A DNA stretch of 64,000 nucleotides. Origin: Pricia mediterranea. Its GTDB lineage: Bacteria; Bacteroidota; Bacteroidia; Flavobacteriales; Flavobacteriaceae. Where the stretch lies: positions 2,912,501-2,976,500 of the forward strand of contig NZ_JAVTTP010000001.1 of the NCBI RefSeq assembly GCF_032248455.1. The letters run 5' to 3'. Shown here in pieces: positions 1 through 16,937 of this stretch. A program made the position numbers and the translations under genes. The notes under the pieces were generated by a model. That model was not told the origin of the DNA. It did not search any database and worked only from the letters and a program-made list of their open reading frames with translations. The stretch's first letter is position 1. Every line of letters begins with the position of its first letter.

Positions 1-1280
1 TCCATAAGTCCTTTTAGCGATTCCCCCTGCATCTCTCCGCCCGTTTCGGGCGCTCCGGCGAAATCGAGAAAGGTCTGGGCGAAATCCAAATTCTGCACCA
101 TGGCACCGATTTCAGTTCCCGCTTCGATAGTGCCGGGCATTTGTACCATTAGGGGCGTGCCAAACGATTCTTCGTACATAAAGCGTTTGTCGAACCATCC
201 CTTTTCGCCCATCCAAAAACCTTGGTCGGATGTGTATATGACCAAGGTATTTTCGTCAAGTCCGTTTTCCTCTAGGTAATTGAGCAGTCGACCAACCCCA
301 TCGTCCACCGCCGCAATGGTGGCCATATAGTCCCGAATATAGCGTTGCCCCTTGTATTCGTCGAGTGCCTTGCCGTGCAGGTCCGCCTTCCAAAAGGCAT
401 TGTTCTCGGGCAGGTAGGCCGCGTCCCAGGCCTCACGTTGAGAGGGCGACATTCTGACGAAATCATTTATCCAAGGGTTGGCCGCCAGTTCGGTGCTACC
501 ATATTCCTTTGACATCTTGAGGTCGTGACCCTCGTACATGTCCTCATAAATAGTCTGAAGCTGTTCCTGGGCCGCTTTTTGATTCTTGAAATCGGGGAAA
601 TAGGTATCCGGTAACGGAAACTGCACCGAATCGTATTTGTTGACGTACCGCAACGGGGGCATCCAGTTTCGGTGCGGGGCCTTGTGGTGCACCATTATAA
701 AGAACGGCATGCTTTCGTTGCGTTGATTTTGCAACCAGTCGATGGCGTCGTCGGTAATGATATCGGTGGCGTAACCGTTGATACGGACGGTATCACCACT
801 CTGTCTGATAAAATCCGGATTATAATAATTTCCTTGGTCCACAATGATGTTCCAATAGTCGAAGCCCTCCGGATAGCCGTGAAGATGCCATTTGCCCGTA
901 ATCGCGGTTTGATAGCCGAGTTTTTGCAGCATTTTAGGTACGGTAGGCTGGCTACCGTCGAAACGGTCACCGTTCTGTCGGAAGCCGTTGATGTGGCTGT
1001 GTTTACCCGTCAATATCACCGCGCGACTGGGTCCACAGATGGAATTCGTGACATAGGCACGGTGGAACAGGGCCCCGTTTTCGGCAATTCTATCGATATT
1101 CGGGGTAGGGGCGAGCTCGCTAATAGGATGTCCGTAGGCACTGATGGCCTGAATGGCATGGTCATCGGCCATGATAAAGAGGATGTTGGGCTTTTTACCG
1201 TCGGATGTTTCTTCGGGATTATCCGATTTGCATCCCGCTACAAATAGGAGGGTTATCAGGGGAATGATGTAACGTATCAT
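1..1280 (-). CDS. S1-family sulfatase lipoprotein, 3' part beyond window
   Basis: The gene starts at the ATG at 1278-1280 and stays open for 426 codons to the window edge, so its C-terminus is missing. A lipoprotein signal peptide ends in FVAGC with the lipid Cys at 17. The type I sulfatase signature CGPSR follows at 82-86. Cys82 is the residue converted to formylglycine in this family, and Asp39/Asp40 (MADDH) are the expected calcium ligands. It would hydrolyse sulfate esters on a glycan from a membrane-anchored position. It lies 163 bp downstream of the GH3 gene on the same strand, so it may be the last gene of the PUL or the first of a separate unit. A sulfatase does not fit a plain beta-1,2-glucan substrate. 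Family call is secure; substrate is unknown. Confidence 0.93.
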   Translation of the reverse strand, partial: MIRYIIPLITLLFVAGCKSDNPEETSDGKKPNILFIMADDHAIQAISAYGHPISELAPTPNIDRIAENGALFHRAYVTNSICGPSRAVILTGKHSHINGFRQNGDRFDGSQPTVPKMLQKLGYQTAITGKWHLHGYPEGFDYWNIIVDQGNYYNPDFIRQSGDTVRINGYATDIITDDAIDWLQNQRNESMPFFIMVHHKAPHRNWMPPLRYVNKYDSVQFPLPDTYFPDFKNQKAAQEQLQTIYEDMYEGHDLKMSKEYGSTELAANPWINDFVRMSPSQREAWDAAYLPENNAFWKADLHGKALDEYKGQRYIRDYMATIAAVDDGVGRLLNYLEENGLDENTLVIYTSDQGFWMGEKGWFDKRFMYEESFGTPLMVQMPGTIEAGTEIGAMVQNLDFAQTFLDFAGAPETGGEMQGESLKGLM

Positions 1281-1443: not shown

Positions 1444-3735
1444 CTACTTCAAGCTGAAGCTTGTCTTCAAGGCCGCATTGGAATCCGTTCCTACAAAGAC
1501 CTGAAATTCCCCGGGCTCGACCGTAAACTCCAAATCACTGTTGTAAAATTTTAAGTCATCGGGACTTAAGGTCAAGTTTACCTTCTTGGATTCCCCCTTT
1601 TTGAGGAACACCTTTTGGAAACCTTTCAGCTGCCGTTTGGGCGGGGTGATACTGCGTACCACATCCCGGAGATATAGTTGTACCACTTCCGCGCCGTCGT
1701 AACTGCCGATGTTTTTAAGGGTTACGGAAACCGTTACGGTCTCATCGGCGCCGATTTCGGATTTGTCCACCCGAAGGTCGGAATATTCGAATTCCGTATA
1801 GCTCAATCCATGGCCGAACGGCAGCAAAGGGGAATTGGGCGCATCGAGGTAGTTGGACTTGAATTTCTGGAAAGCCTCCGCGTCTTGGGTACTTTCCACT
1901 GGCGCGGCGGGCCGTCCCGTATTTTTCATACTGTGGTAAACGGGGATTTGTCCTACATTGCGCGGCCAGGTGGCCGTCAATTTTCCAGAAGGATTGTAGT
2001 CCCCGAAAACCACATCGGCAATGGCGTTCCCAGCCTCCACGCCAGGATGCCATACCTGTAGGATGCTTACCGGGAGCTCATATTCTTCTTCTATGGTCAG
2101 GGGCCGGCCGCTCATCAACACGAGTACCAAGGGTTTATTTGTTTTCGCCAAGGCCCGAATCAGTCTCTTTTGGGCATCGGGAATCGAAATCTCCGTCCGG
2201 CTGGCGGCTTCGCCGCTCATTTCGGAGGCCTCACCTACCACCGCGACCACCACGTCGGCCGCCTTGGCCGCTGCCAGGGCTTCGTTCAAGAGGGTTTCGG
2301 GAGAACGTTTATCGATTTCCACCTTCGGCCCGAACACATTGACGTTTTTGGCCATTACGGTATCGTTGGTAATATTGGCGCCCTTAGCGTAGGTAATAGA
2401 AGCTTCGGGAGCAACATTTTTAAAACCTTCCAGTACGGTGACGGCCAATCGATGCTCCCCGGTGGGCGCCCAGGTGCCCAACATATTATTGCGACTGTCC
2501 GCCAAGGGCCCCACTAAGGCGATTTTAACATTCTTTTTCAAGGGAAGAATATTTTGATGTCTTTTTAGCAGCACAAAACTGTGGGCCGCCAGCTTGCGGG
2601 CCAGTTTTCGGTTTTCGTCGGTCAGGATATCCTTTTCGGGGCGCGCCTCGTTCGAATAGCGGAAAGGATCTTCGAGGAGTCCCAGTCTATATTTGGCTTC
2701 CAAGATCCGTCGGCAGGCCGTGGTGATCTGCGCTTCGGTCACTTTGCCTTCGTCCAAGGATTTTTTAAGGGTGGTCAAAAAGCCTTCCCCGACCATATCC
2801 ATATCGAGTCCCGACTCAAGCGCCATGGCCGACACCGCCTGCAGATCACCCAAGCCATGCGCTATCATTTCGTTGACCGAGGTGTAGTCTGAAACCACAA
2901 GGCCGTCAAACCCCCAACGTTCGCGTAACAGGTCGGTAATCATCCATTTATTGGCGGAAGCAGGAATACCGTCGATATCGTTAAAGGAGGTCATGGCACT
3001 GCCCACGCCCGCATCGACCGCCGCTTTGTAAGGCGGTAGGTATTGGTTGAACATCTTGATTTTGCCCATATCCACCGAATTGTAGTCGCGCCCCCCTTCC
3101 GAGGCTCCGTAAAGGATGAGGTGTTTTACGGTCGCCAACATGGTGTGCGGTGCGGTAAGGTCGGTTCCTTGATACCCCTCGACCATCGCCGTTGCAACCG
3201 CAGAACCCAGGTAAGGGTCCTCCCCGGCGCCCTCTGCGATCCGGCCCCAGCGGGGGTCGCGAGCGATATCGACCATGGGGGAGAAGTTCCAGTTGATACC
3301 ATCGGCGGTGGACTCCCTCGCCGCGATTTGGGCGGATTGTTTTAATAGGTCCATATCCCAGCTCGATGCCGAACCCAAGGGAATGGGAAAGGTGGTCTTG
3401 TAGCCGTGGATTACGTCGGAACCAATGAGCAGGGGAATCTTTAAACGGGAACTGTTGACGGCAATTTCCTGCGCCTTTCGGACCTTATCGGGACCCGTGA
3501 CGCCGAAGATGCCGCCTACTTCGCCCGCCTTGATCTTGGCCTCCACATTTTCGCTGACCACGGATCCGGTCGCGATACCACCACCGGGAGTCAACAGGTT
3601 CAACTGGCCAATTTTTTCCTCGACGGTCATTTGTTCCAAAAGGGATTCCACTTCGGGAATCGGGCTTTGGCTTTGCGCCGCAAAGGCATTGGAACACATA
3701 CAAAAGAGCAAAGCAATACATTTCTCAAGTTTCAT
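1444..3735 (-). CDS. GH3 family beta-glucosidase (BglX-like)
   Basis: 763 residues with a Sec signal peptide ending near residue 20 (NAFAA). The N-terminal TIM-barrel domain carries KH at 204-205 and the nucleophile region VVSDY with Asp283. The alpha/beta sandwich domain has MSGEAASR, where Glu509 is the family-predicted acid/base. A fibronectin-III-like domain closes the protein (about 655-755). Length and order match periplasmic BglX. It starts 1 bp after the PHP gene stops, so it is translated in the same operon. In GH144-containing PULs of Bacteroidota, GH3 enzymes are known to cleave sophoro-oligosaccharides to glucose; that specificity here is inferred from context only. Confidence 0.93.
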   Translation of the reverse strand: MKLEKCIALLFCMCSNAFAAQSQSPIPEVESLLEQMTVEEKIGQLNLLTPGGGIATGSVVSENVEAKIKAGEVGGIFGVTGPDKVRKAQEIAVNSSRLKIPLLIGSDVIHGYKTTFPIPLGSASSWDMDLLKQSAQIAARESTADGINWNFSPMVDIARDPRWGRIAEGAGEDPYLGSAVATAMVEGYQGTDLTAPHTMLATVKHLILYGASEGGRDYNSVDMGKIKMFNQYLPPYKAAVDAGVGSAMTSFNDIDGIPASANKWMITDLLRERWGFDGLVVSDYTSVNEMIAHGLGDLQAVSAMALESGLDMDMVGEGFLTTLKKSLDEGKVTEAQITTACRRILEAKYRLGLLEDPFRYSNEARPEKDILTDENRKLARKLAAHSFVLLKRHQNILPLKKNVKIALVGPLADSRNNMLGTWAPTGEHRLAVTVLEGFKNVAPEASITYAKGANITNDTVMAKNVNVFGPKVEIDKRSPETLLNEALAAAKAADVVVAVVGEASEMSGEAASRTEISIPDAQKRLIRALAKTNKPLVLVLMSGRPLTIEEEYELPVSILQVWHPGVEAGNAIADVVFGDYNPSGKLTATWPRNVGQIPVYHSMKNTGRPAAPVESTQDAEAFQKFKSNYLDAPNSPLLPFGHGLSYTEFEYSDLRVDKSEIGADETVTVSVTLKNIGSYDGAEVVQLYLRDVVRSITPPKRQLKGFQKVFLKKGESKKVNLTLSPDDLKFYNSDLEFTVEPGEFQVFVGTDSNAALKTSFSLK

Positions 3736-3736
3736 A

Positions 3737-4939
3737 TCAGTTTGGTTTTTTAATGCCTATGGGCTGTGTCCAAGCTTTTTCGTATTCGGTCTCGTCGAAA
3801 AAATTTTGGTTCGTTTGGTCCGATACGACCTTAGCTCGTACAAAGCCATATCCGTGAGGTAGTGTGAAACTCGCCTTTGTGCCTTTTACCCGCTCTATAA
3901 TTTGGTAAGCGTCGGACGCCGGATCCTTTCCAATAAGCTGAATTTCGTACCCCACATCAGGTTCAGCGGCTATTTCTATCTGTAGGCTGTCGTTGCCCGT
4001 TTCCAGACCTTTCAATAGCACTCCGGTCGAGGCGTAGAAATCGCCATTTTCCATGGCTGTGATTATACTGGAAGCGGTCAAAGAGTCCGCCCTGACCATG
4101 ACCCAACCTCTTCCGGGATTGCTATAACTCTTATCGAACCGATGGTAATTATGACTGTCGTCGGTGGCCACCCCATATAACAGGGGCTTGCCTTCCTGTA
4201 GGTAGGAAGCGTTGATCAAATCCCACATGGATTCGGTGTCCAGATGTGTCGAATCCCCGTCGTTATTGACCAAAGGATGTCCATTATAAACCTCAAAAAA
4301 ACGCACATCGTTCAACTGCATAAAGTCGTCGGCTGAAATACCATATCCAAAATTCGGATGGTTGATGTGGGGCATAATCGGTACGTTCAGTCTTTCGCGC
4401 TGCTCCAAAATGGCATCGATATTATTTTGGATGATTTCCGCAACGTTCCCACCCTCCTTGGGACTTATTTTTTCTTGGATGTTGGACGCGTTGATATGGA
4501 TGGGCTTGTCTCCAAAATTACTGGTTATTTCTTCCGACTGAATGATCAAGAACTCCCCGTCTTCCTCAAAAAGGGACCTATATTCCTCCAACGTCTTTAG
4601 TTTGACTTTGGTTCGGCCCGTACTGTCCAATTGATGTTCTACCCACGACTCCCCATAGTGGTCAAGATAGTCATGAAAGGCTTCTTGCAAATATTCTTTT
4701 TCGGATAAGGTAATCCACATTTCGCCCTCCGCTAAGGTATTATGGTCCGAGAGTACTGTAAAATCGTATCCGTTGGTCTTGTACCAATCCATGATTATTT
4801 CCGGAAATTCATTTCCGTCGCTCCAGTAGGAATGGGCATGTAGGTTGCCTTTGTACCATGTTTTATCTTGCGACAAAATCGTACCATGGGCCATAAAACC
4901 CAAAAGAAATACTGCTAAAAATAGATTATCCGACCTCAT
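3737..4939 (-). CDS. Secreted PHP-domain metallohydrolase (CehA-like)
   Basis: 400 residues with an N-terminal hydrophobic signal segment (about 5-22, cleaved near LSQ). PHP motifs follow in order: LHAH with His34 and His36, Asp41 in SDGN, SDH at 64-66, EE in IIQSEEIT, a central PHINHPN motif and a late ATDDSH motif. These are the metal-binding positions of PHP phosphoesterases and CehA-type hydrolases. A C-terminal beta-rich segment has no assigned function. The gene sits between GH43 (20 bp) and GH3 (1 bp) in the PUL operon. Known PHP enzymes hydrolyse phosphomonoesters, phosphodiesters or carbamate-type esters. In this PUL it may strip a phosphate-linked substituent from the glycan, but that is inference. 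Confidence 0.85.
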   Translation of the reverse strand: MRSDNLFLAVFLLGFMAHGTILSQDKTWYKGNLHAHSYWSDGNEFPEIIMDWYKTNGYDFTVLSDHNTLAEGEMWITLSEKEYLQEAFHDYLDHYGESWVEHQLDSTGRTKVKLKTLEEYRSLFEEDGEFLIIQSEEITSNFGDKPIHINASNIQEKISPKEGGNVAEIIQNNIDAILEQRERLNVPIMPHINHPNFGYGISADDFMQLNDVRFFEVYNGHPLVNNDGDSTHLDTESMWDLINASYLQEGKPLLYGVATDDSHNYHRFDKSYSNPGRGWVMVRADSLTASSIITAMENGDFYASTGVLLKGLETGNDSLQIEIAAEPDVGYEIQLIGKDPASDAYQIIERVKGTKASFTLPHGYGFVRAKVVSDQTNQNFFDETEYEKAWTQPIGIKKPN

Positions 4940-4959
4940 GCTTTTGTTCTATGTTAAAA

Positions 4960-6699
4960 CTAATTTACCTCCGTTACCGGATTTCTTTCCGAAACCCCGT
5001 TTTCGTTAAAGGCCTCGACCGTAAAATAATAGGTCTGATCGGTGTTCAGGGATTTTAACTGCAATGATTCTTCGCCGTAGATCAGCCATGAGCTGTACAG
5101 TTTATCCGGCGCGATGCCCCACAATACGTTATATCCTTGGGCATTTTTGACCGGTTTCCAACTGATTTTGGCGCCCCGCCTTTGGTCGTTCCGGATAATT
5201 TCGATGTTCTTTACTGACTTTGGTGCTTTTCCGCTCCCGTTTCCGAACACCCGGATGTCGGATATGGATAGGTATGGTGTGGGTGCGTGGATATTCTTAT
5301 ACCGAATGAACCGTGCCTTTCGCGGAGTTTCCAAGGCTACATAGTCGTTGGGCACGTCTTTATCGTTGGTACTCCGGTCCACCAGGTTGAACCACTGGGT
5401 TCCATCCAATGATCCCTCTACCGTATATTGATGGTATAGCCCGGGTATCTTCCCGTACATATCGGTTTTATAATCGTTGTAATTGACCTGTACGGCATAA
5501 ACCTCGCCCGGTTCGCCGAGGTCGATCTTCGCCCATTGGTCCGCATCGTTCCGCTCGGCGACCCAATATGATTTTACGTTCTCGTCGGTAAGGGCATCCG
5601 CCCCGAAATCTTCCAGATGGGAGGATGTTTTTACCGGTTTGCCGTATGACAGTAACATCCAACCCGTGAATTTTCCTTTTTTGTCCGATTCGGACGGGGC
5701 ATAATGGGGATAGTCGCCGAAATAGGTGTTGGACCACAGCAATCCATCCTCATCAAAAAAGGTGGGAAACATCCCGATACGCCGTTCCCATCCTATATTG
5801 ACATTGACGGCCATAGAGGAAAAATGCCACCATTGATTCCCCGGGCCCCTGACCGTACTGCCATGCCCGGCGCCGTTAATAAAGCCCCCTGGTTTGTAGG
5901 AAAAGGGATTGTTTGGCATGTATTCGAACGGCCCCAATGGCGAATCGCCGATATAGGCGCCATCGGCATAGACGTCGAATTCCGTGCCGGGGGCGCCGTA
6001 TTGTAAATAGTACTTGTCGTTGTGCTTGGTCATCCACGGGCCTTCGATATATCCGCTGAGTTCGGTGTCGGAGTGGTTTTCGCCGAAACGTTCCCAGCCG
6101 TGCTTTTCGGGCTGGAGATTAAATAGTTCGTGGATTTTCTCCGAGGGCCGGAATCTTTTGTCCTTGTCCAGTTTCCTGGCCCGGATGGGGAATTTATTCG
6201 AGGAGCCCCAGTAAATATGGCCCTGTCCGTCGTCGTCGATAAAAAGCGCGGGATCTTGCAGATTATGCAAAATTCCCGGGGTCGCGGTCCATTCCCCGTC
6301 CTGCGGATTATCCGAATAGAGAACACTCATGGAGCCAGATGGGTTTCCGGCCATATAGAGTACGGAATCGCGATAGTTGAAGGCAGCGGGGGCATTGGAG
6401 CCCTGAAAGTACCATTGTTTGGGCTTGATAAACTCCCATTCGTCCAAATCCTTGCTGTGCCAATAGCCCATAGAGCGGGTGACGAACATATAATACTCAT
6501 CTTTAAAGCGTACTACTGCCGGATCCGCGCCCGACCGATACGAAAGATCTTTGTGGGAGTTGTAGATCATGTAGGTGTAGTCGATATTAACGGGATTGCA
6601 ATAGGTTTCGGTCTGGGCAAGTATTGGCCCTAAGCCGATACAGCCTAAAAGTAGGCAGCTTGTTCTTAGGTGTGCAAAACGTTTCGAATATGTAGCCAT
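4960..6699 (-). CDS. GH43 family glycoside hydrolase with discoidin and Fn3 tail
   Basis: 579 residues with a signal peptide ending around PILAQ (28-29). All three GH43 catalytic acids are visible in family context: Asp59 in GADPA (base), Asp149 in LQDPALF followed by IDDDG (pKa modulator) and Glu219 in YIEGPW (acid). The five-bladed propeller runs to about 350. After it come an F5/8-type C (discoidin-like) domain (about 365-490) with typical ARFIRYKNI and DIRVFG strands, and a short fibronectin-III module ending the protein. It is the middle member of the PUL operon, 65 bp after the alpha/beta hydrolase. Members act on arabinose-, xylose- or galactose-containing glycans; the linkage cut here cannot be told from sequence. 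Confidence 0.9.
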   Translation of the reverse strand: MATYSKRFAHLRTSCLLLGCIGLGPILAQTETYCNPVNIDYTYMIYNSHKDLSYRSGADPAVVRFKDEYYMFVTRSMGYWHSKDLDEWEFIKPKQWYFQGSNAPAAFNYRDSVLYMAGNPSGSMSVLYSDNPQDGEWTATPGILHNLQDPALFIDDDGQGHIYWGSSNKFPIRARKLDKDKRFRPSEKIHELFNLQPEKHGWERFGENHSDTELSGYIEGPWMTKHNDKYYLQYGAPGTEFDVYADGAYIGDSPLGPFEYMPNNPFSYKPGGFINGAGHGSTVRGPGNQWWHFSSMAVNVNIGWERRIGMFPTFFDEDGLLWSNTYFGDYPHYAPSESDKKGKFTGWMLLSYGKPVKTSSHLEDFGADALTDENVKSYWVAERNDADQWAKIDLGEPGEVYAVQVNYNDYKTDMYGKIPGLYHQYTVEGSLDGTQWFNLVDRSTNDKDVPNDYVALETPRKARFIRYKNIHAPTPYLSISDIRVFGNGSGKAPKSVKNIEIIRNDQRRGAKISWKPVKNAQGYNVLWGIAPDKLYSSWLIYGEESLQLKSLNTDQTYYFTVEAFNENGVSERNPVTEVN

Positions 6700-6764
6700 A
6701 ATTGATGTATTAGATGTATGTGAATTTCCTTAACAGGATGCTTTTATCGAATACCTTGATATCG

Positions 6765-7550
6765 TCAACGGGAATGTGAAAAAAGCCAGGGCAGCAGTCC
6801 GGGTTCTCCAAAGGCGTTGTCCCAGCTGTTGTGATTGGCGTCGTCATAAAGTGTGAACTTCGGATGACCGCCCTCTTTCAGAAGTGCTGAAACCATCGTT
6901 AGCGAATGTTGGGGGTCTACCACATTGTCCCGCGCCCCGTGAAAGGCCCAAAGCGGGACTTTGGTCGCATAATTCGTGACGGATTCCGGTTCTCCCGCTC
7001 CGCAAATCGAAATTGCCGCCGCAAAGACATCCGGTTTGCGCGATAAGAGTTCGTAGGTGCCCATACCTCCCATCGAAAGGCCCATCACATACATCTGGTT
7101 CCTATCGACATAGTCTTTGCTCCTGAATTCATCCAGCAATTCCATCACAAGACTTAATGGTTCTGTAGGCCCCTTTGCATACTGAAAATCCAGACCGATC
7201 GGGTACGAACTACGGTCTACGGCTACGTTGGACCAATAATTATCGGCGGGACATTGGGGAAAGATAACGATTGCGGGAAATTCTTTTCTATGGGATGGAT
7301 TTGCGAACAACCGACTTCCGTGCGTCAACTGTTTTTCGTTGTCGTTTCCCCGCTCCCCGCCGCCGTGTAAAAACAGGATTAGGGGGTAGGAATCATCTTC
7401 ACTAAAATTTTTGGGATACAAAATCCGGTACAAGAGGGTATCCTTTCCGTCGATAAAGTGCTCTTTTTTGTATAAGCTGTGCTCCTGGGCAAGCGCAACA
7501 CATCCATAAGAGAGAAGAAGAACGGTCGAAAGTAATTTTTTAGTTCGCAT
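6765..7550 (-). CDS. Secreted alpha/beta hydrolase (carboxylesterase-like)
   Basis: A longer frame opens at 7586, but the ATG at 7550 is preferred because it begins a clean signal peptide (MRTKK to CVALAQ). That gives 261 residues. The triad is recognisable: Ser159 in GLSMGG, Asp208 in GARDNVV and His240 in ANHNSW. The oxyanion motif is LHGGGERG. The family includes dienelactone hydrolase-like and feruloyl/acetyl esterase-like secreted enzymes. It overlaps the upstream GH144 gene by 11 bp, which implies translational coupling within the PUL. It probably removes an acyl group from the glycan; the acyl type is unknown. Confidence 0.88.
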   Translation of the reverse strand: MRTKKLLSTVLLLSYGCVALAQEHSLYKKEHFIDGKDTLLYRILYPKNFSEDDSYPLILFLHGGGERGNDNEKQLTHGSRLFANPSHRKEFPAIVIFPQCPADNYWSNVAVDRSSYPIGLDFQYAKGPTEPLSLVMELLDEFRSKDYVDRNQMYVMGLSMGGMGTYELLSRKPDVFAAAISICGAGEPESVTNYATKVPLWAFHGARDNVVDPQHSLTMVSALLKEGGHPKFTLYDDANHNSWDNAFGEPGLLPWLFSHSR

Positions 7551-8976
7551 AATTAAAACCGAGTTTGTCGAGGCCTGCCTGCACATCCTCGTTTTGCATA
7601 AAAAGTTTCCATAACAGTCCCGAGCGGTAGTTTTCGATCATGACCAATTGCGGCCCTTGATCGATGGCCAAGTAGGCTTCCGCTACCCAGAAATCGTATT
7701 GTGGACTAAAGGCATCGTAAAATCCTGCCGGACCCAAAAGTTTGCCCTTGTTCCTATAAAAATAATGCAAGGCCTTTATTGATTCGTCGGGGGTGTAGGG
7801 CAGGGAACCGATCGCCGCCGTAGGCGAAATGACCCCGGTATCGTTGGAGGGGCTGTGGGCGGTGTATCCGATTCCCCCGTCGTCTTTACGGGTATAGCTC
7901 GCGGTGAGGCCCCAGCAATTTTCCCCGTAGGCCTTAAAGTTTTTGGGGTTGTCAACGCAGTAGGCATGGTTGATCTTGGAGTGGTTCACCACGGCATCCC
8001 CGTAATTTACAAAATCGTCGGAAAGTCCCCTTGGGTCGAGTCCCAGGTAGGAGTAATGGGCCCAGAACAGCGGTCCGCCCTTGGGTGCGTTGCCGGCATG
8101 GTCGACCACTAGGGGGATACCGTAGGCGGATTCCGCCGAAGCGATGTTGCCGTTGGAGGCCCAGCCGTTGGTATATACTTCTTTTGTGATGCCGTGATCT
8201 GGAGAGGCCGCTGCCAAAACATAGGTGATCAGCACCTCATTGTATCCTTTGAGTTCGAGGTTGATGGCGAAGTCGTGATCGGGACTCCAGTGCCAATACA
8301 AAGCGTTCTTGTTCTGGGTGTACCAATCCCACTCCACACCTTTCCATAGGCTATCGGCTTTTTCCGCTAGGGCTTTTTCGGTATCGGTGCCGCCCTTAAA
8401 ATATTCCGAGATACAGATAAGACCTTGCGCCAAAAAGGCGGTTTCGACCAGGTCGCCGCCATTATCTAGCGGACTGAAAGGCCTGACTTTGCCCGTATTA
8501 CCGTCAAGCCAGTGCGGCCATGCGCCGTGAAAACGGTCGGCGGATTCCAGAAAATTCAGGATTTGATCAAGGCGTTCCACCGCTTGTTCCCGGGTGACGA
8601 ACCCGCGTTCGATACCTACTAGGATTCCCATTACTCCAAAGCCGGTGCCCCCGATGGTCACCGTATTGGGGTCGTTGGCGGGGTTGCCGGGATGGTAGCG
8701 CTCCCTCGCCGCCCCCGAATTGGCTTCGGCGAAATCCCAGAAATACTTAAAGGTTTCGCCCTGGGTCAGGTCGAGCAGTGCTTCATCACTGATTGCGGGT
8801 GGTTCTTCCCCTTTGTCGGGTACGGTATCCTTGGGAGTTTCGGGGAGTTGCGATTCGCCGGTAGGACCTTGGCCGTCATCGTTCGAACAAGAAACAAGCA
8901 GGAAGATGGTGGCTAGGGATACGAGCATCCTGTTCCATCCTGTTTCCGTATTGCTGATTTGTAAAACCATTTCCAA
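7540..8976 (-). CDS. GH144-type endo-beta-1,2-glucanase, lipoprotein (first copy)
   Basis: 478 residues of the Glycoamylase family (PF10091), which contains the GH144 endo-beta-1,2-glucanases. A lipobox LLVSC puts the lipid Cys near 30, so the protein is outer-membrane anchored. A second ATG 16 codons in (MLVSLA) would also give a good lipoprotein signal, so the start is uncertain. Shared motifs with the next gene upstream include TFDYFW/TFKYFW, GGTGFG, the acidic motif GGDLVETAFL, YWHWSP, GPLFWAHYSYLGLDP, SPTAA and the C-terminal MIENYRSGL. It lies 160 bp from its paralogue, with a short interspersed repeat between them. It probably cleaves linear or cyclic beta-1,2-glucan to oligosaccharides. 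Confidence 0.85.
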   Translation of the reverse strand: MEMVLQISNTETGWNRMLVSLATIFLLVSCSNDDGQGPTGESQLPETPKDTVPDKGEEPPAISDEALLDLTQGETFKYFWDFAEANSGAARERYHPGNPANDPNTVTIGGTGFGVMGILVGIERGFVTREQAVERLDQILNFLESADRFHGAWPHWLDGNTGKVRPFSPLDNGGDLVETAFLAQGLICISEYFKGGTDTEKALAEKADSLWKGVEWDWYTQNKNALYWHWSPDHDFAINLELKGYNEVLITYVLAAASPDHGITKEVYTNGWASNGNIASAESAYGIPLVVDHAGNAPKGGPLFWAHYSYLGLDPRGLSDDFVNYGDAVVNHSKINHAYCVDNPKNFKAYGENCWGLTASYTRKDDGGIGYTAHSPSNDTGVISPTAAIGSLPYTPDESIKALHYFYRNKGKLLGPAGFYDAFSPQYDFWVAEAYLAIDQGPQLVMIENYRSGLLWKLFMQNEDVQAGLDKLGFNYAN

Positions 8977-9042
8977 GAATCCTGTTTTAGAGCCTTGATT
9001 TTAAATTACTGATTGTCAGAAGATGCCCGTTTTAATTAGGTC

Positions 9043-9063
9043 TCGACTGCGCTCGGCCTGACA
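9043..9063. repeat. Short interspersed repeat related to copies at 52.1 kb
   Basis: TCGACTGCGCTCGGCCTGACA matches the arm of the repeat cluster at 52116-52209 (TCGACTGCGC; cgacctgaca). It sits in the 160-bp gap between the two GH144 genes. Such degenerate palindromic elements recur in flavobacterial intergenic DNA. Confidence 0.55.
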
Positions 9064-9136
9064 TTTTGCTGATAGTGGACTGTAAGTAGATGAGTAACTA
9101 TCTACTCACCTCTATCCTATTTTTTACGCCGGTTCT

Positions 9137-10516
9137 TTACGGACCTTGCTCTTGTTCTGCTTTAGCACCTGTTTCAAATCCAAGTTTTTTTAATCCCTTT
9201 TGTACGTCTTCGTTCTTCATAAACCATTTCCACGGCAGGCCGCTGCGATAATTCTCGATCATGACCGGAATCGGTCCCTGGTCGATGGCCAGATAGCGGG
9301 GTAGGTACCAGTTTTTTTCAAGACTAAATGCATCGTACGGACCATATTTGCCTACCAGACTGTCGAGGTCGGTGTAGAGATGCCGCAAGAACTCCTTGCT
9401 CTTATCGGGGGTATAAGGCATAGAGGATAATGCGGCGGTCGGGGAAATTACCCCCAGATCTTTATCCGGCCGGTGCGCCGAATAGCCCTTTACGGAATAG
9501 CTCGAGGTCATGCCCCACAGATTGTTGCCATAGCCCTTAAAATTTTCAGGATTGTCGACGGCATATTCGTAGTGGATAAGCGCGTGGTTTTTGTTCAGTT
9601 TCCAATAGTCGGCGTATTGGTCGGTCAATCCCTTCGGGTTTAGTCCTAAATACGAATAGTGCGCCCAAAAGAGCGGGCCCACGGGAGAATCGCCTCCCGG
9701 ATAGTGGTCGAGTTCCGTTTCTAGACCATAGAATAGCGTATCGTTGGTGATGTCACCGTTTCTGGCCCAGCCTTGATCATAGACTTCCTTGGAAACGGGA
9801 TGGGTCGGGGAGGCGGCTGCCAGCACGTACATGACCAAGGCCTCGTTGTAGCCGTGTACGGCAAAATCTTTTTCCCAGCCGTATTCGGGAGACCAGTGCC
9901 AATACAATACGTTTTCGCCGTTTTTGTTGTACCAGTCCCATTCCACTTCCTCCCAAAGTTTTTGGATGTTGGCCGCGAGTTGTTTTTCCCTTTCGTTGCC
10001 ATCCTTGAAATATTCCATTACGGTAAGTAGTCCTTGTACCAAGAAAGCAGTTTCTACAAGGTCGCCGCCGTTGTCCTTTTTGCTGAAGGGGGTCATCTTG
10101 CCGTCGGGCGTGAGCCAGTGTGACCAAACCCCATGGAAGCGATCCGCCTTCGCTAGAAAATCGACCGCTTTTTCGTAGCGTTCTAGGGCCTGTACCCGGC
10201 TGATGAATCCACGTTCGACCCCCACGAGAATGGCCATAAGTCCAAAGCCGGACCCACCGGTCGTGATAATATCCTTATCGTGGGTCGGATAGACATTGTC
10301 CATATGGATGCGTTCCCGGGCGAGGCCGGAAGTAGGTTCGGCCCCCGACCAGAAATAATCAAAGGTTTGGCGTTGTACCCTATCCAATAGTTGCTCATCC
10401 GAAAAGGATGTACCGGATTCTGCGGGTGTAATTTTTTTATCGGTAGTTCTATGGCCGTTACAGCCCGTAATCAGGGAAGCAACGGCCATTGACACTACAC
10501 TCAAAACTAACTTCAT
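9137..10516 (-). CDS. GH144-type endo-beta-1,2-glucanase, lipoprotein (second copy)
   Basis: 459 residues with lipoprotein signal MKLVLSVVSMAVASLITGC (lipid Cys19). It is collinear with the paralogue at 7540-8976: TFDYFWSGAEP, GGSGFGLMA, NGGDLVETAFLVQGL, ENVLYWHWSP, HGYNEALVMYVLAAASP, GPLFWAHYSYLGLNP, VISPTAALSSMPYTPD and MIENYRSGLPWKW. The acidic residues of the DLVE motif are kept. It follows the LamG lipoprotein by 19 bp and belongs to the PUL operon. Two divergent surface endo-enzymes suggest complementary cleavage (for example linear versus cyclic or substituted substrate). Family assignment is firm; division of labour is inferred. Confidence 0.87.
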   Translation of the reverse strand: MKLVLSVVSMAVASLITGCNGHRTTDKKITPAESGTSFSDEQLLDRVQRQTFDYFWSGAEPTSGLARERIHMDNVYPTHDKDIITTGGSGFGLMAILVGVERGFISRVQALERYEKAVDFLAKADRFHGVWSHWLTPDGKMTPFSKKDNGGDLVETAFLVQGLLTVMEYFKDGNEREKQLAANIQKLWEEVEWDWYNKNGENVLYWHWSPEYGWEKDFAVHGYNEALVMYVLAAASPTHPVSKEVYDQGWARNGDITNDTLFYGLETELDHYPGGDSPVGPLFWAHYSYLGLNPKGLTDQYADYWKLNKNHALIHYEYAVDNPENFKGYGNNLWGMTSSYSVKGYSAHRPDKDLGVISPTAALSSMPYTPDKSKEFLRHLYTDLDSLVGKYGPYDAFSLEKNWYLPRYLAIDQGPIPVMIENYRSGLPWKWFMKNEDVQKGLKKLGFETGAKAEQEQGP

Positions 10517-10535
10517 AAAATCGGGCTCAAACTAT

Positions 10536-12335
10536 TTATTGATCAAAATCCCTTATCGTTTGTATTTCCTCTTGGGTCAAGACCTTATCGTAGAAACGCA
10601 GTTCATCGATATAGCTTAGGTCCGATAAATGGTTCCAACCTGTAAACCTGGGGGCACCGGAGCCTATGGAAAGTATCTCGGTACCGGTCCAGTCGAAGCC
10701 GGGTAGTGCTTTTTCGGCTACCATTTCTCCATCGATATAGACTTTGGCACTATCGTCCGATATGGTAAACGCCAAATGTACCCAATCGGTTGCCGTAGCG
10801 GGGTTTAAGGCGGCGGCGTCACCGCCATCGGCCCATTCATTGCCATCGCCGGTACCCACGTTCAATTTGACCACCTGTCTCTCGGCGTTGCCCTCCCTCA
10901 ACAATCGGAACCCGCTGTTGCGGTTGTTCTGCACCTCGGGATAATTCTCGTTTTCGGGATCTTCCGGGGAGATGGTCAAAATACCGGCACGGTCGGGATC
11001 GGCGTTCAGTTTGTACCATAGGGTAGCACTGAACTGCGGGGTAGTGATCGGCCCCATTTCATTAATCGGGAAGGTCAAGTAGGAATCCGTGGCCCCGGCG
11101 TACGCGTTCGATCCCGCGACACTTTCTCCGGCAAAACCGGGATTGCCGACCGCTTCGGCCTCCATATCCCTGAAGAGTTCGCTATAGTTATCGTCGAAGG
11201 GCATATAGAACATTTCGCCGGCAAAAGCAGGTGTGTACGACGACACGAATTCACCGGAGTCGTCGGCCATGATCTGTTGAATTTCCGCTTGCGAAATGGC
11301 CCTATCAAAAATACGGAGCTCGTCCATAAAGCTTTGATCGGACAGGTGGCCCCATCCCGTAAAGTTAGGGGCGCCCGACATAATCGAAAGCAAACCCGTA
11401 TCCGACCAGTCAATTCCATCCAGGGCATCCTGTTTAACGATTTGTCCGTCGATGTACACGATGGCCTCGGTTCCCGAAATTGTAAAGGCCATGTTGACCC
11501 ACTTATCCGCTGCAGGGTCCACATCGGCTGCTTCCCCTCCATCGAACCAATTCCCTGTGTCACCTGAGCCCACATTCAATTTAAACCGTTGCATACCGCC
11601 GGCATTCTCCCTAAAGAAGCGGAAGCCCTTGGTGAGATCATTGGCATCCCCTTCCATCGGGGGACTCATAACCAAGATTCCGGCCCGATCGGGTACGGCA
11701 TTGACCTTCATCCAAAAAATAGCACTGAATTCCCCGTTTTTAAAGCGGTCGCCGGGCAGCGTCAGGTACGATTCCTCGGCACCTGCATAGGCGCTGGGGC
11801 CGGCCAGGCTTTCTTCGGTAAAGCCGGGATCACCCTCTACGGTAGCTTTTTTAAGGCTCACCAGATCGGTATAGTCCCCATCGAAGGGCATATAAAGCAA
11901 CTCCCCTGCATATTTGGGAAGGTAAGCGGGCTCTTTGGTAAAATTTACGGTAGAGGTGGTGGTCTTGCCATCTATGTCGGTGGCAACAACGCTCATTTCG
12001 TGGGCGCCATCGGCCAATTTATCATAGCTCAGGTCATCGACTATTAGACGTCGGTAGTCCTTAAAGTTGCTGTAACTACCGATCTGTTTGCCGTCTATCA
12101 TTACTTTTACGGAGGCCACCTCGATATCATCGGTCACCTCAAAATCGATATCCACACTCGCCAATTCCTCGTTGACCTTGATCGTTTGGCCCTCCGTAGG
12201 GGAATTGATGGTTATTGCCGGGGCGGATTCGTCTGTCCCGGGGGCTACGGGCGTTATCGGATCTATGCCCTGGTCGCATCCGTACAGCAACAAGACCGCT
12301 ATCGATGCCACGACACTATTTTTGAACTTTTTCAT
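10536..12335 (-). CDS. Surface lipoprotein with two LamG domains (glycan-binding candidate)
   Basis: 599 residues with lipobox LLLYGC (Cys20). An Ig-like domain (about 38-130; SPTEGQTIKVNEEL) precedes two tandem concanavalin-A/LamG domains (about 140-365 and 370-595). The repeats share GELLYMPFDGDYTDL / GEMFYMPFDDNYSEL, AYAGA..SYLT, DRAGIL, FTGWxHLSD and DELRxxD. No glycosidase catalytic motif is seen. Its position right after susD, where SusE/F-type surface glycan-binding proteins usually lie, suggests it captures the polysaccharide at the cell surface. It is 24 bp from susD. Confidence 0.82.
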   Translation of the reverse strand: MKKFKNSVVASIAVLLLYGCDQGIDPITPVAPGTDESAPAITINSPTEGQTIKVNEELASVDIDFEVTDDIEVASVKVMIDGKQIGSYSNFKDYRRLIVDDLSYDKLADGAHEMSVVATDIDGKTTTSTVNFTKEPAYLPKYAGELLYMPFDGDYTDLVSLKKATVEGDPGFTEESLAGPSAYAGAEESYLTLPGDRFKNGEFSAIFWMKVNAVPDRAGILVMSPPMEGDANDLTKGFRFFRENAGGMQRFKLNVGSGDTGNWFDGGEAADVDPAADKWVNMAFTISGTEAIVYIDGQIVKQDALDGIDWSDTGLLSIMSGAPNFTGWGHLSDQSFMDELRIFDRAISQAEIQQIMADDSGEFVSSYTPAFAGEMFYMPFDDNYSELFRDMEAEAVGNPGFAGESVAGSNAYAGATDSYLTFPINEMGPITTPQFSATLWYKLNADPDRAGILTISPEDPENENYPEVQNNRNSGFRLLREGNAERQVVKLNVGTGDGNEWADGGDAAALNPATATDWVHLAFTISDDSAKVYIDGEMVAEKALPGFDWTGTEILSIGSGAPRFTGWNHLSDLSYIDELRFYDKVLTQEEIQTIRDFDQ

Positions 12336-12359
12336 CCTTATTGATTTGTTAGTTTATTG

Positions 12360-13898
12360 CTAGTTTTCCAAAATGGGGAATTGATCCACCTGTTCCTGGG
12401 GATAGGGGAGGTAACTCTTATCCTCCGAGAAAGTCCTTCCGCCATAGCTCAGTTCTTCGTAGCGGCCCAGGCGAAGCATATCGAAATAGCGTTTGCCCCA
12501 TTCCATACTGAGTTCGGCAAATTTTTCGTCCACGATCTGGTCGAGGGTCACGCCCGTTATCGGGGCCATTCCGGCCCGTTCACGGACCAGGTTCACGGCC
12601 TGGTCCGCGGTCATCGCCGAACCATTGGCCCCCTGCACCAAGGCCTCTGCGTACATCAAGAGAATTTCCGCATAGCGTATCATGATATAGTTTTTGTTAC
12701 TGCCGTAGGCCGTTCTGCCGGGTATCAATTGGTTCGAGGGCAGATAATGCTTACCACTGGCGAAGAGGGCACGAGCATAATCGTTGATTACATCGCCGTC
12801 ACGGGTCGTATTGGAAACGAAACCCGGAAGGGTCGCATAATCTGCATCTTGTTGAAGTTCTGCGATGCCCCTATCGGTAAATAGCACACTGGTTTCTAAA
12901 CGGACCGTTTCACCACGGTCGAGCATGAATTTAATAAACTTCAAACTAGGCTCGTAAAAGCCCCATCCACTTGAGGCCCCTTCGACGGCGGGCGTCCAGC
13001 CTTGGGGTCCGTAGGGCGCGTACAAATGGCCCGACCGATCGCCTTCCCCCTGTCCGTAATCGGAATATTGAAGGGACAAGACAGTTTCATCGCTGAGTTT
13101 ACCGGGATTTTTAAACAGTTCGTAAAAATCTGGAAATAGGCTATAGGAGCCAGAATTTATAATTTGTGCGGTCGCATCGGCTACGGCCTGATAGTTTTCG
13201 AGTTCCTGGTTGGCCAAAGCCTTGACGGCATAAGCGGTGTTGACCGTGACCCCGCCGGGGATACCGGTTCTTTCATTGGGATGGCCTGGCGGCAACAAGG
13301 GGATGGCCGCGTCCATCTGGTCGGAAATATGTTGCATCACCTCGGTTTTGGTAGGCAAGTTCTCGACCTCCAAAAGTTGTTCGGTATCGGAGGATTCCGG
13401 AATAAAGACATCGCCCCAGGTTTGTGAGATAAAATAGAGCATCATGGCCCGCAACACCTTGATCTCGGCAATATACTGATTACCCAAGGCCTTACCATCG
13501 TTGTCTGCGAGTTCCTGGTACCTTTCTATCTGTTCCATGGCCGTATGGGCGGTAATAATTTCCCGATAGACCGTTTGCCATAACGAGTTGTACATCCAAT
13601 AATCTTTATTGTAATCGAATCGGTCGGTATCCGAAAAGGGTTGCTGATCGCCGAGACCCCCGGCATTGACATCATCACCGCGGACCGAAATGAGAAGCGG
13701 TTGCTCCCAGCCCCTACGTTGAAAGGCTGCGTATACCCCGATCAGGGAAAGTTGCATATCCTCGGTCTTGGAAAAGTCAGTACCGACAGCAAAGTTGTTG
13801 TTGAGTTCCGGTTCGTCCAATTTGTCGGTACACCCGAAGATCAAGCCTGCGATTAGGCCGAACAGTGTTAAATTTCGTATGTTTTGAAACAGTTTCAT
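12360..13898 (-). CDS. SusD/RagB family outer-membrane lipoprotein
   Basis: 512 residues with lipobox LIFGC (Cys23). It shows the SusD hallmarks: an N-terminal DKLDEPELNNNF segment, an early helical TPR-like region (TAHTAMEQIERY; IAEIKVLRAMMLYFISQTWGDVF), the C-terminal YAEILLMYAEAL helix and a terminal LPYPQEQVDQFPILEN. SusD caps the SusC barrel and hands glycans to it. The gene begins 12 bp after susC stops, the usual SusCD arrangement. Confidence 0.95.
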   Translation of the reverse strand: MKLFQNIRNLTLFGLIAGLIFGCTDKLDEPELNNNFAVGTDFSKTEDMQLSLIGVYAAFQRRGWEQPLLISVRGDDVNAGGLGDQQPFSDTDRFDYNKDYWMYNSLWQTVYREIITAHTAMEQIERYQELADNDGKALGNQYIAEIKVLRAMMLYFISQTWGDVFIPESSDTEQLLEVENLPTKTEVMQHISDQMDAAIPLLPPGHPNERTGIPGGVTVNTAYAVKALANQELENYQAVADATAQIINSGSYSLFPDFYELFKNPGKLSDETVLSLQYSDYGQGEGDRSGHLYAPYGPQGWTPAVEGASSGWGFYEPSLKFIKFMLDRGETVRLETSVLFTDRGIAELQQDADYATLPGFVSNTTRDGDVINDYARALFASGKHYLPSNQLIPGRTAYGSNKNYIMIRYAEILLMYAEALVQGANGSAMTADQAVNLVRERAGMAPITGVTLDQIVDEKFAELSMEWGKRYFDMLRLGRYEELSYGGRTFSEDKSYLPYPQEQVDQFPILEN

Positions 13899-13910
13899 AG
13901 TGGCTTTTTT

Positions 13911-16900
13911 TTAAATTTTGATGTTTACCCCAAAAGTATACGTAGCGGGTACCGGATAGGTTTGGTTGTCCACCCCGTTAGGGACCTCGGGGTTGAACCC
14001 GTTGTAATCGAAAATCGTCAAAGGTTTTTCGGCGGTTACGTAGATCCGGGTACGGGCTAGGCCCTTGATTTCACCTTTCCTGTTGATGGTATATCCCAAG
14101 GTCAGGTTTTGTATCCGGATAAAGTCTCCGTCTTCTACATAATAATCGCTAAGTTGCTGGTTCCAACTTTTTCGCACCCCTTTAGATGATGGATAACTGT
14201 TCGTAGTGCCCTCGCCGTGCCAACGGTTGACGGCAAAATCTCGGTCCCAGTTGGTATCACTGGTAAAGATGACCTCGCCGCGCTTTCGGTTTAAAATCTT
14301 GTTTCCACCCTGTCCGATAGCGCTGGCCGAAAAGTCCCACGCCTTATAGTTGAATCCCAGATTGAAACCAAAGTTATAGGAAGGCAAATAGGATCCTAGT
14401 ACTACGCGATCGTCCCCATCGATAGTGTTAGGGTCTCCCCCGTTCTCTTTATAAATGAAGTCACCGGGTTCGAGTCCGTTATCCACGGCTACGGGATCGG
14501 CCTGAATCTGGGCCTCGTTTTGGTACACGCCTACGGTTTCAAGTCCGTAGAAGGCGAAGATGGGTTCACCTACGATCGATCGTTGGCGAAACTCCGCCGA
14601 CCCCGCATCGAGATAGGGTTGTCCATCCAGATCAAGTACCTCATTTTTTAGGGAGGCAAAGTTGGCTCCTACACTATAACTAAAATCTTCCGAGACTGTT
14701 TTGTTCCAGTTCAGCGCGAGTTCTAGGCCCGAATTTCTGATTTCACCTACATTCTGTCGAGTTGCCCCAGGGATCAATGGCCGTAAAACGTCAATTACAG
14801 CATCTTTGGTCGTTCTGACGTAATAATCGGCTTCCAGCGACAGGTTGCTATCGAAGAACCGGGCCGTTATTCCCCCGTTGATTTCCTCGGTCACTTCCCA
14901 TTTTAAGGCGGTAAAGTCACTGCTGGTCTCTACGCCGCTTACCATTGTATCGTCCAAAGCGGTGGTTATCACCTCAGAAACAATCCCGCCTTCACTTGAG
15001 GGTACCTTGTCGTTGCCCAGTTCGCCCCAACTGGCTCGCAATTTCAGGAAATCGACAAAGCTATTCTGAGGAAAGAACGACTCTCCCGATAGCACCCATC
15101 CCGCACCTACGGTGGGGAAGTAGCCCCATTTTTCCTGGTATTTATTGGTGCCATCGGCCCGGTAGGTGCCGTAGAGCAAGTAGCGGTCGTCATAGTTGTA
15201 GGATATTCGGCCGAAGAACGAAAGACCGTATTCCCGGCGACCGTCATCACCCACGTCATCTTCAGGTGTGGATTGGGCCTGATTTAAGAAATAAGCCTCT
15301 TCACCGGTCAGCGGAAAGTTTAGTCCTTTGGCGGATAGGCGTTCAAAAGACTCATCACGAAACGACGCACCGGCCAAGACTGTAAGGTCGTGTTTGCCGA
15401 AGTCATTGTTGTAAGTTAGCGTATTGTCCCAAATTTGGTTGGAGTAAGTCTCATTTCTCTTGACCAATTCCGCATCTTCACGCTGAAAATTGTTCCCTAA
15501 AAAATAAGGCAAGCGTACTTCACGTCGTGAGCGTGTCTCAAAATTGTGGTTATAGGCTGTTTTAAAGGATAAGACCTCGGGAACGATATCGATTTCGGCA
15601 TAAAAGTTGGCCAGCACATTGCGGATTTTGTTCCGGAACTCGCTGAAATCCATGAGGGGAAAAGGATTTTGGCCGCCGCGATAGCCCAGATCTTGCGCAT
15701 TTGCGTAATTAACAGGAAATACTTGGGGATCATCGCCGAGCAAGGGGTCGAATACGGGCATGGTAGGTACGGCATAATAGGCCCGCCGCCAAGCGGAATC
15801 CTCCGCATCGAAACGGGTGGCGTTGCTGATGACCACGTTGCCCCCGATGGTAAGGTTGTCATTGACCCTAAAATCAATCTTGCTCCGGAGGTTAAAACGC
15901 TCGTACTCATTTTTCATTTTTAGAAGTCCGCCTTGCTCAAAATAGTTGGCCCCAATGGCGTAGTTGGCATTTTCACCGCCCCCCGTAAAGTTAAGGCTAT
16001 GGTTTTGGATCATTGCATTGCGCATAATCTCATCGTACCAATCGGTGTTGACCGCGGGAACGTTTGGATTGATACGGCTTCTCCCGTATCGCTGCATCGC
16101 ATTTTCAATAAACAGGGCATCCGGTTCGGATCCCGATTCCCTGGCCAGGGTGGAGAATTGTTCGCTATTCGCCATTTTTAGCACGTTCTGGGGCACCTGA
16201 TATCCAGAATAACCACTGTACGTGATTTCAGGTTTTTGGTTGTATGATCCGGATTTTGTCTCGATCAGTACTACTCCGTTGGCGGCCCGTACGCCATAAA
16301 TAGCGGCCGCCGATGCATCTTTTAGCACCGAAACGGAGGCGATGTCGGCGGTATTTAAGAAATCGATGTTTTCGAAGAACATCCCATCCACCACATAAAG
16401 GGGTCCTGATGCATCCGTATCGTATGATCCGATACCGCGAACCCTAACGGTAGGCGATTGCCCGGGGCCACCACTGCTCACGATCTGTAGGCCGGCGACC
16501 TTACCTTGCAACGCCTGCATCGCCTGGCCCGTCGGGGTCGCCTCCAGTTCTTCGGATTTAACTGTGGTAATGGCGGAGGTCAAATCTTTTGACTTCATTT
16601 CACCGTATCCGATTACCACGACCTCCTCCAGTGCCTGTGCATCTTCCTGAAGGGTAACGTTGAGAGTAGTCTGCCCGTCAACGGGAATTTGCTGGGGTGC
16701 GAATCCGATGTAACTGATTTCTAAAGTGGCATCGGCGGGAACGTTGTCCAGGGTGAAGTTTCCATCAAAGTCCGTCTGTGTTCCCGTGGTCGTGCCTTGA
16801 ACGACGACCGAGGCCCCGGGCAATGGCCCCATCGAATCGGAAACCGTACCGGTGACTGTTATATTGTCTTGCCCAAAAACGAGCGTTCCGGACGATGCCA

Positions 16901-16937
16901 ATAATAAAATCACCAATAAAACGTTACGTATTTTCAT
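13911..16937 (-). CDS. SusC/RagA family TonB-dependent outer-membrane transporter
   Basis: 1008 residues: signal peptide (about 1-22, LVFGQ), carboxypeptidase-D regulatory-like domain (about 25-110; VTGTVSDSMGPLPGASV), TonB box region and plug (about 115-235; VVVIGYGEMKSKDLT, TGQAMQALQGKVAG, VRGIGSY, LYVVDG, SVLKDASAAAIYG), then a 22-strand barrel ending in TFGVNIKI. It imports large oligosaccharides together with SusD. It is the first gene of the PUL operon, with a 214-bp leader region that contains a putative operator (17006-17126). Confidence 0.96.
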   Translation of the reverse strand: MKIRNVLLVILLLASSGTLVFGQDNITVTGTVSDSMGPLPGASVVVQGTTTGTQTDFDGNFTLDNVPADATLEISYIGFAPQQIPVDGQTTLNVTLQEDAQALEEVVVIGYGEMKSKDLTSAITTVKSEELEATPTGQAMQALQGKVAGLQIVSSGGPGQSPTVRVRGIGSYDTDASGPLYVVDGMFFENIDFLNTADIASVSVLKDASAAAIYGVRAANGVVLIETKSGSYNQKPEITYSGYSGYQVPQNVLKMANSEQFSTLARESGSEPDALFIENAMQRYGRSRINPNVPAVNTDWYDEIMRNAMIQNHSLNFTGGGENANYAIGANYFEQGGLLKMKNEYERFNLRSKIDFRVNDNLTIGGNVVISNATRFDAEDSAWRRAYYAVPTMPVFDPLLGDDPQVFPVNYANAQDLGYRGGQNPFPLMDFSEFRNKIRNVLANFYAEIDIVPEVLSFKTAYNHNFETRSRREVRLPYFLGNNFQREDAELVKRNETYSNQIWDNTLTYNNDFGKHDLTVLAGASFRDESFERLSAKGLNFPLTGEEAYFLNQAQSTPEDDVGDDGRREYGLSFFGRISYNYDDRYLLYGTYRADGTNKYQEKWGYFPTVGAGWVLSGESFFPQNSFVDFLKLRASWGELGNDKVPSSEGGIVSEVITTALDDTMVSGVETSSDFTALKWEVTEEINGGITARFFDSNLSLEADYYVRTTKDAVIDVLRPLIPGATRQNVGEIRNSGLELALNWNKTVSEDFSYSVGANFASLKNEVLDLDGQPYLDAGSAEFRQRSIVGEPIFAFYGLETVGVYQNEAQIQADPVAVDNGLEPGDFIYKENGGDPNTIDGDDRVVLGSYLPSYNFGFNLGFNYKAWDFSASAIGQGGNKILNRKRGEVIFTSDTNWDRDFAVNRWHGEGTTNSYPSSKGVRKSWNQQLSDYYVEDGDFIRIQNLTLGYTINRKGEIKGLARTRIYVTAEKPLTIFDYNGFNPEVPNGVDNQTYPVPATYTFGVNIKI

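Follow-up and report, generated by a model that had tools for sequence, protein, structure and literature searches.

The stretch of DNA analysed here (the window) comprises 64,000 nucleotides of Pricia mediterranea (contig NZ_JAVTTP010000001.1, positions 2,912,501 to 2,976,500), and at its left edge lies a polysaccharide utilization locus (PUL) with two lipoproteins of glycoside hydrolase family GH144, which, as argued below, probably takes up and digests a sulfated, O-acylated beta-1,2-glucan. Open reading frame calls together with Pfam and NCBIfam profiles place the PUL genes between 1444 and 16937 on one strand (-), with spacing that ranges from a slight overlap up to 160 bases, and they include an adjoining SusC/SusD pair along with co-directional carbohydrate-active enzymes. 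In the order of transcription, the genes encode a regulator, SusC, SusD, a LamG lipoprotein, GH144a, GH144b, an esterase, a GH43, a PHP-fold protein, a GH3 and a sulfatase (Table 1). The initial annotation had described SusC/D, two GH144-type lipoproteins and a GH3 on one strand with short gaps, as well as a secreted PHP protein and an esterase in the same operon; the gene calls and profiles confirmed this description, and the PHP fold was backed by a match of its AlphaFold model.

A PF10091 (Glycoamylase) profile search of 397 Flavobacteriaceae genomes and 14 control genomes found GH144 in 107 of the former (105 over the cut-off) and in one of the latter. Stretches of up to 20 kb around GH144 were taken from genome G397 and from 96 of the 106 GH144 genomes that remain when the window's own is set aside (97 survey loci); with three loci fetched for PHP (L004-L006) and the window, the comparison set came to 101 loci, every one but the window belonging to other Flavobacteriaceae. 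An operon was defined as a same-strand run with gaps of <450 bases, and all operon counts are lower limits, as some loci end at contig ends or at the 20-kb limit. The same gene order was found again in dozens of genomes, indicating that the operon is not a chance arrangement: homologues were present for SusC (83 of 101 operons), GH3 (82), the regulator (73), the esterase (62), the LamG lipoprotein (60) and the sulfatase (52), while SusD fell into the window's cluster in 52 operons and into another cluster in 32, and a second esterase (BD-FAE type) occurred in 29. SusC together with at least two GH144 genes was seen in 69 operons, 66 of which hold this sulfatase or either esterase and 34 of which hold the sulfatase and an esterase. 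The unit drawn at 1444-16937 by the initial annotation stands as to its genes and coordinates, and is in fact larger: it takes in the regulator and the sulfatase, to judge by the recurrence of their homologues within this operon in other genomes, and the LamG lipoprotein within it had gone unnamed. The unit ends after the sulfatase since the next gene, read in locus L190, is convergent and fucosidase-like (71-79% identity to a cluster of fucosidase-like proteins).

Table 1. Genes of the GH144 locus, in order of transcription (window positions).
Gene product	Positions	Strand	Evidence
Regulator, Y_Y_Y domain and LuxR-type helix-turn-helix	17152..19908	-	Pfam GerE and Y_Y_Y
SusC-type TonB-dependent transporter	13911..16937	-	TIGR04056, 825 bits
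SusD-type glycan-binding lipoprotein	12360..13898	-	SusD_RagB; lipobox
Putative surface glycan-binding lipoprotein (LamG)	10536..12335	-	Laminin_G_3 domains, two matched stretches; lipobox pattern missed this copy, though Cys follows LLYG
GH144a, probable periplasmic beta-1,2-glucanase	9137..10516	-	58% identity to CpSGL
GH144b, probable surface beta-1,2-glucanase	7540..8976	-	57% identity to CpSGL; acidic residues after lipid Cys
Secreted alpha/beta-hydrolase esterase	6765..7586	-	Pfam
GH43 with F5/8C and fn3 domains	4960..6699	-	Pfam
Secreted PHP-fold metallohydrolase, accessory	3737..4939	-	AlphaFold model, pLDDT 88; best fold match 3e38
GH3 beta-glucosidase, probable sophorose hydrolase	1444..3735	-	Closest PDB match JMB19063 (3u48)
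S1 sulfatase, runs across window edge	3..1280	-	Pfam Sulfatase and SGSH_C

The GH144 pair, GH3 and the backbone

The two GH144 proteins score 271.4 and 260 bits against PF10091 (cut-off 27) and are the only matches to this profile in the 4.57-Mb host genome (three contigs). Both resemble CpSGL, the GH144 endo-beta-1,2-glucanase of Chitinophaga pinensis (5gzh, 5gzk; Table 1), and are 53% identical to one another; unlike CpSGL, they are two paralogues with different lipoprotein tails. In CpSGL numbering, E211, F268 and Y330 define the GH144 clan (PMC12102758). Both window proteins retain equivalents of these residues and of D135, E142 and D400; among 176 GH144 proteins compared (of 177, one being too short), those of E211, F268, Y330, D135, D139 and E142 are kept in every one and that of D400 in 174. 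The idea that the copies are broken or degenerate was ruled out, as every checked CpSGL active-site residue is kept, and by this comparison both proteins are probable beta-1,2-glucanases.

Exactly two GH144 genes were present in 72 loci, with an a-type followed by a b-type in 61, two b-type in nine and two a-type in two (each protein being typed by whichever member of the window pair it matched best). Acidic residues after the lipid cysteine mark the surface export of Bacteroidetes lipoproteins. Among proteins in which a crude lipobox pattern was detected (104 of 177), at least two acidic residues follow this cysteine in 33 of 61 GH144b and 0 of 43 GH144a (Fisher p 2e-10), and at least one in 56 of 61 and 13 of 43, respectively (Fisher p 6e-11), the p values being inflated by related sequences. 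The window pair fits the rule, with CSNDDG in GH144b and CNGHRT in GH144a. A new observation here is this difference in lipoprotein tail between the two GH144 clades, with the acidic surface-type form mainly on GH144b; it suggests that GH144b may be the surface cutter and GH144a the periplasmic one.

JMB19063, a GH3 beta-glucosidase and the closest match of the window GH3, shares a clade with the sophorose beta-glucosidase Lin1840, and its subsite +1 contains Arg587 and Phe598 (PMC4757417). By alignment these residues correspond to Arg608 and Phe625 of the window GH3; among 90 homologues the first position is always Arg, the second is Phe in 70 and Tyr in the other 20, and the putative nucleophile and acid/base are kept in all 90. 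The window protein is like JMB19063 and Lin1840 in all three features (nucleophile, acid/base and subsite +1 arginine), known here from the sequence, and is a probable sophorose hydrolase. Because the GH144 active sites are intact and the GH3 keeps the sophorose-binding arginine of Lin1840, the beta-1,2-glucan backbone that the initial annotation had proposed is well supported.

The GH43, noted at first as a poor fit, remains one; searched by sequence against the PDB, it returned weak matches only (best 1.2e-8). It would find a place if the substrate were a mixed glycan in which short beta-1,2-glucose stretches carry other sugars as side chains, and consistent with this its three putative catalytic acids are intact in 37 of 37 homologues and GH43, GH2 and GH97 occur in 36, 13 and 8 operons, respectively. 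However, 65 of the 101 operons do not have this GH43, and GH2 and GH97 are less common again, whereas GH3 is present in 82; the tandem GH144 pair would also suggest longer beta-1,2 stretches, so that we regard a mixed glycan as unlikely.

The sulfatase, the esterase and the decoration

GH144 PULs of marine Bacteroidetes have been described as carrying an added sulfatase, from which an unknown but ubiquitous marine polysaccharide, sulfated and related to beta-1,2-glucan, was inferred (Lapebie et al., 2019; PMC6499787). A cluster of Maribacter dokdonensis 62-1 holds one GH3, two GH144, susCD and sulfatase genes, and GH144 is found in all Maribacter and Zobellia compared (PMC8072126); another study reports GH144 PUL genes as enriched in its deep (BH) waters (PMC10405439). 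With a sulfatase gene in its operon, the window locus is a member of these marine GH144-sulfatase PULs, a kind that is in print but uncharacterised, and the host bacterium is itself probably marine, judging from its nearest named kin, Pricia antarctica, and its flavobacterial relatives. Unlike the passages on GH144 in PMC6499787 and PMC8072126, the present account gives a predicted sulfate position, the esterase, the LamG lipoprotein, the PHP protein and a candidate surface/periplasm split of the GH144 pair.

The sulfatase, treated at first as a misfit at the edge, is a recurrent part of this operon, and its frequency and that of the esterase support the earlier proposal of a substituted substrate. 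Like 5g2v, 7p24 and 9s03, it has a formylglycine motif and an FDKR motif: the formylglycine Cys and the motif Arg are kept in 53 of 53 homologues, and the Asp and Arg of FDKR in 51 and 52, the membership of these residues in the sugar triad being a guess from sequence. The full-length protein (545 aa; L190:18144-19781) matched 9s03 (putative sulfatase; 797 bits), 7p24 (mucin-desulfating; 533 bits) and 5g2v (N-acetylglucosamine-6-sulfatase; 516 bits), and its part within the window is 64% identical to the solved 9s03 over 306 residues. We take 7p24 and 5g2v to be BT3177 and BT4656. These two enzymes are filed as S1_11 and act on 6S-GlcNAc (6-sulfated N-acetylglucosamine), with Asp/Arg and His holding O4 and O3, while the C2 region shows little conservation in S1_11 and many aquatic members lack it (PMC10154612). 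From its best matches the window sulfatase is a putative S1_11 member, and since the C2 region is so variable in aquatic S1_11, glucose 6-sulfate bearing a sugar at O2 is plausible as its substrate; the expected sugar would be glucose and not GlcNAc, unlike that of 5g2v and 7p24. The predicted position of the sulfate, O6, is new here. A four-sequence structure model of the sulfatase was of low quality (pLDDT 36.5).

Over 302 residues of the stretch compared, 9s03 shares 84% identity with the sulfatase from locus L143, whose operon is a full GH144 PUL, and on this ground 9s03 may well derive from such a PUL. A text search of the literature for the code 9s03 and three other codes found no mention of them.

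Aquatic S1_11 enzymes can also use 6-sulfo-L-galactose (PMC10154612), and the closest named matches act on GlcNAc, so the sulfatase might instead serve another sugar, for instance 6-sulfo-L-galactose of red-algal galactans or 6-sulfo-GlcNAc, and stand beside the PUL by chance. Against this, 52 of the 101 loci have it within the operon itself, no galactan-specific family recurs among the annotated clusters (the nearest being GH2, in 13 operons), and the exo-L-galactose-6-sulfatase 7lha matches at 308 bits, well under 7p24 and 5g2v; we hold such a coincidence to be very unlikely.

The esterase keeps a putative Ser, Asp and His triad in 63 of 63 homologues. The group that it removes is possibly succinyl, and nothing here separates succinyl from acetyl.

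The PHP-fold protein and phosphate groups

For the PHP protein no Pfam domain matched at E 0.001, and the CehA/McbA profile NF038032 gave 78.9 bits, just below its cut-off of 80; its AlphaFold model, however, matched PHP-type phosphoesterases (3e38, then 2anu; 15-17% identity), which supports a PHP fold. Among 63 homologues the putative metal ligands are mostly kept, with six His and Asp260 in 62 or 63, Asp65 in 56 (Glu in six) and Glu136 in 54. The initial annotation had made the stripping of phosphoglycerol and succinyl groups from beta-1,2-glucan a theme of the locus. Spelled out, the substrate would be a proteobacterial glucan, periplasmic or cyclic, that carries both groups, on which the PHP protein would act as a phosphodiesterase and the alpha/beta hydrolase as a desuccinylase. 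Besides the kept ligands, this is favored by genome content, GH144 being present in 20 of the 39 Flavobacteriaceae genomes with PHP and in 87 of the 358 others (p 0.0009), although the excess may reflect shared lineage and genome size. In a tree of 61 PHP proteins, the seven from GH144 loci require three label changes, pointing to two or three arrivals, or to one with two losses; the PHP gene of L094, one of the seven, lies on the strand opposite to the PUL. PHP has therefore probably joined GH144 loci more than once, which is new here.

The distribution of PHP does not support the phosphoglycerol theme. PHP is present in 6 of 101 GH144 operons, three of which were fetched for PHP, leaving two of the 97 survey operons and the window, and lies within 20 kb of GH144 in only 4 of the 20 genomes that have both (G000, G007, G266, G314; 28 kb apart in G231). 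Conversely, GH144 was found in three of 57 PHP-fetched loci of named genomes (L004-L006), within the flanks covered, and L003 has only the GH3. Among the other 54 (L003 included), the neighbourhoods that were annotated include 24 with MATE and enoyl-CoA hydratase genes in common (Arenibacter and Ulvibacterium belong here), eight of a second type that does not resemble a PUL (MoxR-type ATPase or arginase genes) and six with a sulfatase of another cluster. These counts ruled out PHP as a core part of this PUL type and make it an accessory; the phosphoglycerol reading also leaves the sulfatase unexplained, and we consider it improbable. As a separate observation, the PHP gene of L048, L049, L050, L053 and L054 (mostly Rhodothermales or metagenome-assembled genomes) has a different sulfatase next to it, encoded on the other strand.

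PHP, EEP and calcineurin-type folds often cut phosphoesters, and at least one of them is present in 34 of 101 GH144 operons. A secreted EEP-family protein occurs in 20 (e.g., L091 18089-18931), its gene directly following that of the sulfatase in 11 and that of GH43 in seven, and a secreted calcineurin-type phosphoesterase follows the last GH144 gene directly in nine (e.g., L135 8337-9323). The near-exclusivity of the EEP and calcineurin-type proteins was rejected as evidence, as they co-occur in one operon vs 1.8 expected (hypergeometric P 0.43). That these three unrelated folds are alternative phosphate tools in different flavobacteria, for a marine beta-1,2-glucan bearing 6-O-sulfate, acyl and in part phosphate groups, is a long shot. 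The recurrence of the sulfatase points to sulfate, not phosphoglycerol, as the commoner charged group, and a decoration of sulfate and acyl is more likely than one of phosphoglycerol.

The proposed pathway and the surroundings of the locus

From the observed gene content, intact active sites and recurrence we infer the substrate, the order of steps, the location of the enzymes and the sulfate at O6, as follows. GH144b would cut the chain of the sulfated, O-acylated beta-1,2-glucan at the cell surface, and the SusCD pair would import the pieces with the help of the LamG lipoprotein. The sulfatase would take off the 6-O-sulfate and the esterase the acyl groups, and in the periplasm GH144a would shorten the chains and GH3 split sophorose to glucose, with GH43 and PHP handling rarer side groups.

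Several points weigh against this interpretation. We know of no role for GH43 in beta-1,2-glucan breakdown. A Lin1840-type GH3 also cuts laminaribiose (PMC4757417), so the kept arginine does not prove beta-1,2 specificity, and the specificity of the sulfatase is likewise read from its sequence. This sulfatase is missing from 27 of 74 operons with at least two GH144 genes (some loci are incomplete, and L100 has a different sulfatase), and sulfate is for this reason not obligatory. A search of open-licence PMC text found no characterised sulfated beta-1,2-glucan or sulfatase for it. The surface/periplasm split depends on the crude lipobox pattern, on best-match typing, on p values inflated by relatedness and on the general meaning given to acidic residues at this place, and in the GH144 tree the clade that takes 78 of 82 a-type rows has a branch support of only 0.73. 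If the sulfated beta-1,2-glucan is nevertheless the substrate, GH144b and the sulfatase would serve as probes on marine fractions for the polysaccharide inferred by Lapebie et al., and the predicted O6 position makes a standing question directly testable.

In Pricia antarctica, the closest named relative, PHP (76% identity) and GH3 (83%) are all that is left of the GH144 PUL (L003 10001-13600; L187 7500-11100). The two genes are flanked by a TamB-like gene, which also flanks the window PUL, and by a fucosidase-like gene 79% identical to the window's other neighbour; the simplest reading is that the PUL core was lost. In two further members of the genus (L173, L186) the locus contains GH144b and GH43 but lacks PHP, L186 beginning at a contig end. 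Downstream of the PUL, a plus-strand set (L190 1356-15730) resembles, by eye, Gfo/Idh/MocA oxidoreductases, a sugar isomerase and a large dehydrogenase/cytochrome-like protein, and is perhaps a 3-keto-sugar pathway.

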